Assembly: GCA_009377605.1 (NCBI GenBank)
Contig: WHTT01000033.1
Location: 1 to 64,000 of the forward strand
Direction: 5' to 3'
Source: Luteitalea sp.
GTDB lineage: Bacteria; Acidobacteriota; Vicinamibacteria; Vicinamibacterales; Vicinamibacteraceae
DNA length: 64,000 nt
Below, piece by piece: positions 39,784-40,867 of the stretch. Position 1 is the stretch's first letter. Each line of letters opens with the position of its first letter. A program made the translations under genes and the position numbers. The notes under the pieces are model-generated. The model was not told the origin of the DNA, ran no database searches, and worked only from the letters and a program-made list of their open reading frames with translations.

Positions 39784-40284
39784 CTCCGGTGGTATAGCGC
39801 GGCGGGCTCGCCATGCTCGAGGTTGGAAGAAGTCGTTACAACCGTGGATTTTCTCGCGTGTCGCTGCATGCTCATCCGCGGTATCTGGTCAGAAGCAGAT
39901 CGATCTCAGCCTCTCTGATGACTTATCGTTGCTCGTGGCTTCGCGGATAGCACCTGTGCTGCTCGAGCGAGATCACTTACTTCTCAGGCGACTTAGCCTC
40001 ACTTTTCTGCGCTCACTTAGTTACTTGACAGGCTCAACTGCTTGTGTATAGTGAGCGACGCTGCAACGATGGCGGCGTTCACCTCCCCCGATAACCGGTG
40101 TGACCGCGTGGCGGCAATGCAGTGGGCATTCTGCAGGTGCTCTTGCGTGTACCGTCGTCGTAACGTCCGGCTATCGACAGCACGCCCTTACGTAGCCCAG
40201 GCCTTTAGGTTGCTAACCAACAGCCGATCGGCCTACCAGCGATAGCGTAGTTCCACACGTTAGTTGACGTAGGAGGGAAGGACA
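39784..40284 (+). promoter_or_regulatory. 500-bp gene-free region with promoter and long leader
   Basis: No convincing gene is seen. Six ACTT tetramers (39975, 39979, 39991, 40001, 40015, 40023) cluster just upstream of a promoter at 40025-40052. Transcription would start near 40060 and give a leader of about 225 nt before the ATG at 40285. The leader has no terminator I can fold by eye, so an RNA regulatory role is possible but unproven. Confidence 0.5.
40025..40052 (+). promoter_or_regulatory. Strong sigma70-type promoter
   Basis: TTGACA (40025-40030), 16-bp spacer, TATAGT (40047-40052). The -35 is a perfect match and the -10 is 5 of 6. It faces the small cysteine-rich peptide gene. Such a near-consensus promoter stands out in this GC-rich window. 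Confidence 0.8.
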
Positions 40285-40527
40285 ATGATGCAAGCTGGAA
40301 TGAAGAAGCTGGTGTTCAAGTTGGGTACATTGGCAGTGCTCGTCGGCATGGTGTTCGTAACACCCATGATGGCCGATGGATACGGCAAGCCTAAGCCGCC
40401 TCCAACCTGTCTAGAGCTGTGCTACGATCAGTATGCGTTGTGTCTCAGGCACGCCGGCGGCTTTTTGGACAAACTCCAATGCACAGTACTCAAGGTAGTG
40501 TGTGAGACGGAGTGCCACATCTTCTAG
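40285..40527 (+). CDS. Secreted six-cysteine peptide with mirror-symmetric Cys spacing
   Basis: An 80-residue precursor with an AGGAGGG ribosome site 7 bases before the ATG. Residues 6-30 form a signal peptide (MKKLVFKLGTLAVLVGMVFV then TPMMA), cleaved near Ala30. A short Gly/Lys/Pro linker (DGYGKPKPPP) leads to Cys42, 46, 53, 66, 73 and 77. The spacing C-x3-C-x6-C-x12-C-x6-C-x3-C is exactly symmetric about position 59.5, next to Gly58-Gly59. Cys42, 46 and 53 (i, i+4, i+11) fall on one face of a helix, as do 66, 73 and 77, so a helical hairpin with nested 42-77, 46-73 and 53-66 disulfides is predicted. The twin C-x3-C pairs recall hairpinins and CHCH-type folds. Function is unknown. It has its own promoter and terminator and no partner gene. 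Confidence 0.8.
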   Translation: MMQAGMKKLVFKLGTLAVLVGMVFVTPMMADGYGKPKPPPTCLELCYDQYALCLRHAGGFLDKLQCTVLKVVCETECHIF

Positions 40528-40559: not shown

Positions 40560-40612
40560 GGGTATCCCTCAGATCTGGAAGTGAGCGTTTCTCAGTTCCT
40601 TGAGGGATACCC
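40560..40612 (+). terminator. Long hairpin downstream of the six-cysteine peptide gene
   Basis: A perfect 12-bp stem, GGGTATCCCTCA (40560-40571) with TGAGGGATACCC (40601-40612), encloses an inner stem (GGAAGTGAG/CTCAGTTCC, one mismatch). TTTT follows at 40615-40618. It begins 33 bp after the peptide stop and is probably its terminator. The remaining sequence up to 40867 shows no gene. Confidence 0.75.
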
Positions 40613-40867
40613 CATTTTGCACGGGATCGTGAGCGTCATCGTTCCCGTAGGGCATGCGTTCCAAGACGCGACCCTTGAAGCACTGTCCCCCGCTTTCCTC
40701 GTGACCTCATCCGCGAACGCGTCGTCCAACCCGCCAATTGTCGCAACTTCAGACACAAGCTGTGTATAATTCAACGGCGCACCGCTGACGATGCTTGGTG
40801 CAAGTGTGTCATTGTCACAGCGCCCGTGCTGATTCGCCTGTCCTCTCTGACCACACCTCACTTGGAG

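Follow-up and report, generated by a model that had tools for sequence, protein, structure and literature searches.

A gene on the forward strand of Luteitalea sp. contig WHTT01000033.1 appears to encode an exported hairpin with three nested disulfides, possibly a secreted binding scaffold. It lies within the window, the whole 64,000-nucleotide stretch of DNA that was analyzed, in a 6.79-Mb genome of the Acidobacteriota. The product, MMQAGMKKLVFKLGTLAVLVGMVFVTPMMADGYGKPKPPPTCLELCYDQYALCLRHAGGFLDKLQCTVLKVVCETECHIF (translated from the ORF at 40285-40527, + strand), has its six cysteines arranged as C-x3-C-x6-C-x12-C-x6-C-x3-C, or 3-6-12-6-3, an exact palindrome. The mirror symmetry had been pointed out in the initial annotation of the DNA and is borne out by the translated reading frame; the signal peptide described there corresponds to an N-terminus judged signal-like on visual inspection and under a simple rule. 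The features of the locus are as follows.

40025-40052, +: promoter TTGACA-16-TATAGT, 11/12 consensus matches
40059-40284, +: leader of about 226 nt, its start placed from the promoter position
40285-40527, +: ORF for the 80-residue peptide, with cysteines at 42, 46, 53, 66, 73, and 77
40285-40374, +: putative signal peptide, residues 1-30, from sequence; probable cleavage after Ala30
40375-40407, +: linker DGYGKPKPPPT preceding the first cysteine, from sequence; low model confidence
40408-40452, +: predicted helix 1, residues 42-56, with Cys42, Cys46, and Cys53 (AlphaFold2 model)
40453-40461, +: turn Ala57-Gly58-Gly59 (AlphaFold2 model)
40462-40521, +: predicted helix 2, residues 60-79, with Cys66, Cys73, and Cys77 (AlphaFold2 model)
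40560-40618, +: terminator-like element, a 3' hairpin and then a short U tract; folds in two species

Reality of the Gene and Its Symmetry

A short reading frame in a GC-rich genome might be an accident, and symmetry by itself is something that chance produces at a rate of 0.3%, as judged by shuffling six cysteines among 50 residues. That the ORF and its symmetry are both accidental is nevertheless exceedingly improbable. The gene has a syntenic counterpart in a second species, its promoter and 3' hairpin are conserved there, and seven palindromic relatives occur within the genus. Comparison of the signal region and linker of the two syntenic genes gives dN 0.15 and dS 0.86 (p = 2.6e-4), and this purifying selection on the signal region indicates that the frame is a genuine gene. 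Among the 4912 distinct short ORFs in all of the sequence examined, 184 have exactly six or eight cysteines; 16 of these are palindromic, and 15 of the 16 are members of the hairpin group. Because the loci were fetched for carrying these peptides, the baseline serves as a background check and not as a census.

The near-consensus promoter reported earlier holds up, and both hexamers, along with the sequence surrounding the -10 element, are kept in the second-species syntenic gene (G001). A good promoter does not by itself establish the high expression that the initial annotation proposed. The leader, previously given as 225 nt, measures about 226 nt when counted from the transcription start expected for this promoter; its sequence is poorly conserved in the syntenic gene, and it carries the Shine-Dalgarno sequence AGGAGGG at its 3' end, just upstream of the ORF. 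No Rfam family was matched in or around the gene. The downstream element had been called a strong terminator, a description that survives in part. The hairpin is real, folding in both species with similar energies (-34.8 kcal/mol for the window gene and -34.3 for its counterpart) and showing a compensatory pair change from T-A to C-G between them, but the U tract in the window is just four long and a simple terminator scan did not list the structure.

Family Members in the Genus

The genus is represented here by two genomes, that of the window and the MAG Luteitalea sp. Dino_bin50, the second species. Together they hold eight full members: the window gene, its syntenic counterpart, a tandem pair in each genome (two loci), and two more genes of the second species. 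Both syntenic genes are followed by the same GSDH-type dehydrogenase gene. Every one of the eight members is palindromic, and the spacings are 3-6-12-6-3, 3-6-3-8-3-6-3, 3-10-12-10-3 (four members), and 3-6-18-6-3 (two members); thus relatives sought for conservation of the symmetry do keep it, though the spacing itself differs among them. Counted along each helix from the outermost cysteine, the cysteines of the genus members fall at positions 0, 4, 11, and 15. The window peptide uses 0, 4, and 11, the counterpart 0, 4, 11, and 15, and the tandem pairs 0, 4, and 15. Positions 11 and 15 are gained or lost in both arms at once, and none of the eight peptides has an unpaired cysteine. Such change in mirror pairs is what one-to-one bonds across an antiparallel hairpin would be expected to leave.

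A profile search of genome contigs with one paralogue found matches only in Dino_bin50, and a sister genus yielded no member by profile. A ninth candidate, with four cysteines (3-11-3) and a signal-like N-terminus, lies at L057 5342-5554 (-) and is preceded by a TTGACA-16-TATAGT promoter, with the same hexamers as that of the window gene. After the tandem pair comes, in both species, a gene for a thioredoxin-like protein that has a CxxC motif (Redoxin E 1.4e-5, slightly under the curated cut-off) and is a possible partner of the pair; beside thioredoxin-like homologues in other families, no adjoining palindromic peptide was found.

Predicted Structure and Disulfides

AlphaFold2 was given the mature window sequence alone, because a MAFFT alignment of this sequence with its paralogues had slipped register. 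The model is a helical hairpin, as the initial annotation had anticipated, with helices at residues 42-56 and 60-79 and a mean pLDDT of 86.8, rising to about 95 in the hairpin. By straight-helix geometry the cysteine positions lie within a 60-degree face. For a 3-10-12-10-3 paralogue the prediction (pLDDT 83.6) is again hairpin-like, with two helical arms, though its five models agree less well with one another. The window model, together with the mirror-paired changes among relatives, suggests the bonds 42-77, 46-73, and 53-66.

A Foldseek comparison of the window model with the PDB gave no significant match. On structural realignment the walnut Jug r 2 leader ranked first, with a Z of 5.2 and an rmsd of 1.5 over 38 residues; the nemertean neurotoxin B-IV and the copper-storage-type protein CSP3 gave Z values of 2.3 and 2.5. 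Values of this size are common for helical hairpins.

Comparison with Known Hairpins

The nearest likeness in shape is to the α-hairpinins of plants. The 6C class has the motif C-x3-C-x3-C-x4-20-C-x3-C-x3-C, which is symmetric and comprises three pairs (PMC11591084), and in the 4C class the bonds join the first cysteine to the last and the inner two to each other (PMC7191063). Like these, the window peptide has twin C-x3-C elements and would be a small exported helix-turn-helix, probably with nested disulfides; its model has two antiparallel helices and a turn, and the Jug r 2 leader is its best match among solved structures. In contrast, the second gap is 6 or 10 in the bacterial peptides instead of the 3 of the 6C motif, their helices are longer, and the genus members are not basic. 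With an inner gap of 6, the window peptide fails the 4C and 6C x3-gap motifs, and no sequence similarity to plant α-hairpinins exceeded the Pfam and NCBIfam cut-offs, the plant sequences covered being PDB chains.

Neurotoxin B-IV also folds as a helical hairpin, which carries four disulfides (PMC6410017; 1VIB). Its spacing, 3-6-2-10-3-6-3, is close to the 3-6-3-8-3-6-3 of a second-species gene, which likewise has eight cysteines, whereas the window peptide has six. B-IV (1VIB; Pfam Toxin_13) is, however, an animal toxin; the matches to it, at E 1.8 and 0.26, are not significant, its structural Z is low, and Toxin_13 scores 11.9 bits in the window peptide, under the gathering score of 21. Thus the bacterial peptides resemble the α-hairpinins and B-IV in shape but are not filed as members of either group, because the sequence and motif criteria that were tested fail. 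The initial annotation had found a third symmetric pair unfamiliar. Hairpins with three or four pairs are in fact known from plants and nemerteans; what stands is the bacterial setting, for which no report of a laddered hairpin was found in the open-access literature.

Other comparisons are more distant. The small Tim and CHCH proteins of mitochondria, with twin C-x3-C or C-x9-C motifs, are also helical hairpins with nested disulfides that are oxidized outside the reducing cytosol, but they have two cysteine pairs. No CHCH or Tim profile matched the window peptide at E 10, and the CHCH model matches one distant eight-cysteine relative weakly (E 0.04, below cut-off). The Csp and DUF326-like bundles also have rows of cysteines facing the inside of helical bundles. 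Csp proteins are four-helix bundles whose free thiols bind Cu(I), and mirror pairing of cysteines is not expected in them. TIGR04453 (Lepto_8Cys) likewise describes small Cys-rich proteins; it weakly matches one distant relative (E 0.019, 15.4 bits against a cut-off of 34) and has no above-cut-off match in the window's genome. Indeed, no family in Pfam, NCBIfam, PHROG, or PADLOC covers the bacterial hairpin peptides above cut-off. Matches of the window peptide to Phage_G spike protein were not significant.

Relatives Elsewhere in the Phylum

A full-length profile run over 396 genomes of the phylum retrieved exported peptides with spacings of 3-10-10-10-3, 3-10-11-10-3, and 3-10-17-(12 or 13)-17-10-3, and a mature-domain profile added three further relatives. 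The shorter peptides follow 3-10-(9 to 11)-10-3 overall; in one relative (L115) the palindromic core is accompanied by one additional cysteine on either side. The long eight-cysteine subfamily occurs in 8 of the 41 genomes of one class, with up to three copies per genome. Its spacing, 3-10-17-(11 to 13)-17-10-3, is kept in 13 of the 14 long peptides listed, the lone exception having an extra cysteine in one arm and another at the end. A conserved SPSxP-like tail comes immediately after the last cysteine in the long peptides (L157-L171). A profile of the 3-6-x-6-3 type found no convincing member beyond the genus in the same 396 genomes, and no relatives appeared in the viral contigs, phages, or plasmids searched.

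The first matches had per-genome E-values of 5.8e-7 to 2.5e-3, of which the best alone is clearly significant after correction for 396 genomes, and the later profiles were built with these first matches included, so that their tests are not independent. On these grounds common descent of the phylum relatives with the window genus is suggested by the sequences, and the same architecture may instead have been reached by convergence.

Several associations of the relatives were seen in passing. One subgroup of the long peptides adjoins, in four genomes, an oppositely directed gene for an exported TSP3-repeat protein (L175 5708-8794, L177 711-3818, L179 392-3511, and L153 7114-8931), which in three of the four has about 1030 residues and BNR repeats. 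A second eight-cysteine subgroup has in its vicinity a gene encoding a zinc-ribbon and response-regulator protein (L176 3642-4415, L180 1269-2096, and L154 1805-2488). At L148, L149, and L151, in three genomes, the surroundings of the basic 3-10-x-10-3 peptides include genes of the nicotinate phosphoribosyltransferase-like and isochorismatase-fold (nicotinamidase-like) kinds, with Pfam run on L149 alone. A degenerate DNA pattern of cysteine codons, applied to the order, was swamped by TGY-rich repeats in 126 of 162 genomes, and a control pattern was equally noisy. Tandem TGCCCCACACGATGTTG-type repeats are widespread in the order (for example at G105:C64:15038-15160), and their reverse complement would code for NIVWGT-like repeats.

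Proposed Mechanism and Function

A plausible course of maturation would begin with Sec export of a peptide of about 50 residues and proceed by oxidation in the periplasm by the disulfide machinery of the cell. Export and oxidation are made plausible by the signal-like N-terminus and by a VKOR disulfide-forming enzyme, above its family cut-off, encoded in the window genome. The product would be a hairpin of two antiparallel helices fastened by three nested disulfides, probably 42-77, 46-73, and 53-66; these would form a ladder whose rungs lie on one face of each helix. The rigid, protease-resistant scaffold so formed would leave exposed faces free to bind a target outside the cytoplasm.

What the binding is for can be proposed with reserve. 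The reading tentatively preferred is that of a secreted interaction or antagonism peptide. Between the two syntenic genes the Cys core has dN 0.51 and dS 0.29, and its substitution pattern differs from that of the signal and linker (Fisher p = 0.0012). A conserved signal with a fast-evolving core is typical of secreted antagonists and target-binding peptides, and a core that appears to diverge much faster than its signal peptide would fit such a role. Yet the core by itself does not reach significance for a dN/dS above 1 (p = 0.10 to 0.25, from a single gene pair). Paralogue pairs are under purifying selection, with dN/dS of 0.07 to 0.42. The neighbors of the window gene (an aquaporin, HemD, the GSDH-type dehydrogenase, a BlaI-type repressor, and an M56 peptidase) include no immunity, export, or maturation gene, and the peptide has a net charge of -1. 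Antagonism is therefore only weakly indicated.

A housekeeping protein of the envelope or periplasm, serving stability, redox buffering, or adhesion and not aimed at other organisms, is a possibility that follows close behind. It would suit the purifying selection on the paralogues, the thioredoxin-like gene adjoining the tandem pair, and the long eight-cysteine relatives, which keep their SPSxP tail and their neighbors in several genomes. It accords less well with the rapid divergence of the window core and with a scattered presence that leaves the sister genus, by profile, without the family. An unlikely alternative is a periplasmic store or chaperone for a metal such as copper, in which facing thiols would bind metal, as in Csp or Cox17, with no disulfides. 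The facing rows of cysteines do recall Csp proteins, CSP3 is among the low-Z structural matches, and by eye Csp/DUF326-like Cys-rich proteins fit the raw cysteine pattern in other genomes. A metal core, however, would account for strict mirror pairing less well than one-to-one bonds do, the location is exported and VKOR is present, no metal-transport or copper gene was recognized next to either the window gene or the tandem pair, and enrichment in methionine or histidine was not seen. Slightly less likely again is a cationic antimicrobial peptide that disrupts membranes. The peptide is small, exported, and Cys-rich, and a strongly basic character (+6 to +12) is seen in some of the distant relatives, but within the genus, the window peptide included, net charges run from 0 to -4. 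A charge so close to neutral, together with the absence of a neighboring immunity gene, counts against a classical antimicrobial role.

Beyond the single gene, one may speculate, with more doubt than confidence, that the Acidobacteriota hold a large unrecognized superfamily of exported disulfide-ladder hairpins, built from modular rungs at positions 0, 4, 11, 15, and 33 and used for secreted binding or antagonism, which arose independently as the counterpart of the plant α-hairpinins and the worm toxins. Bacteria would then be added to the known makers of helical hairpins stapled by several disulfide rungs, and the rule of mirror-paired rungs would allow members to be found once sequence similarity has faded. 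The modular rungs would provide a natural series for asking how disulfide ladders set stability, and so small and stable a scaffold may be useful in peptide design. Such a family would also offer a way into the small exported proteins of the Acidobacteriota, an unexplored set.
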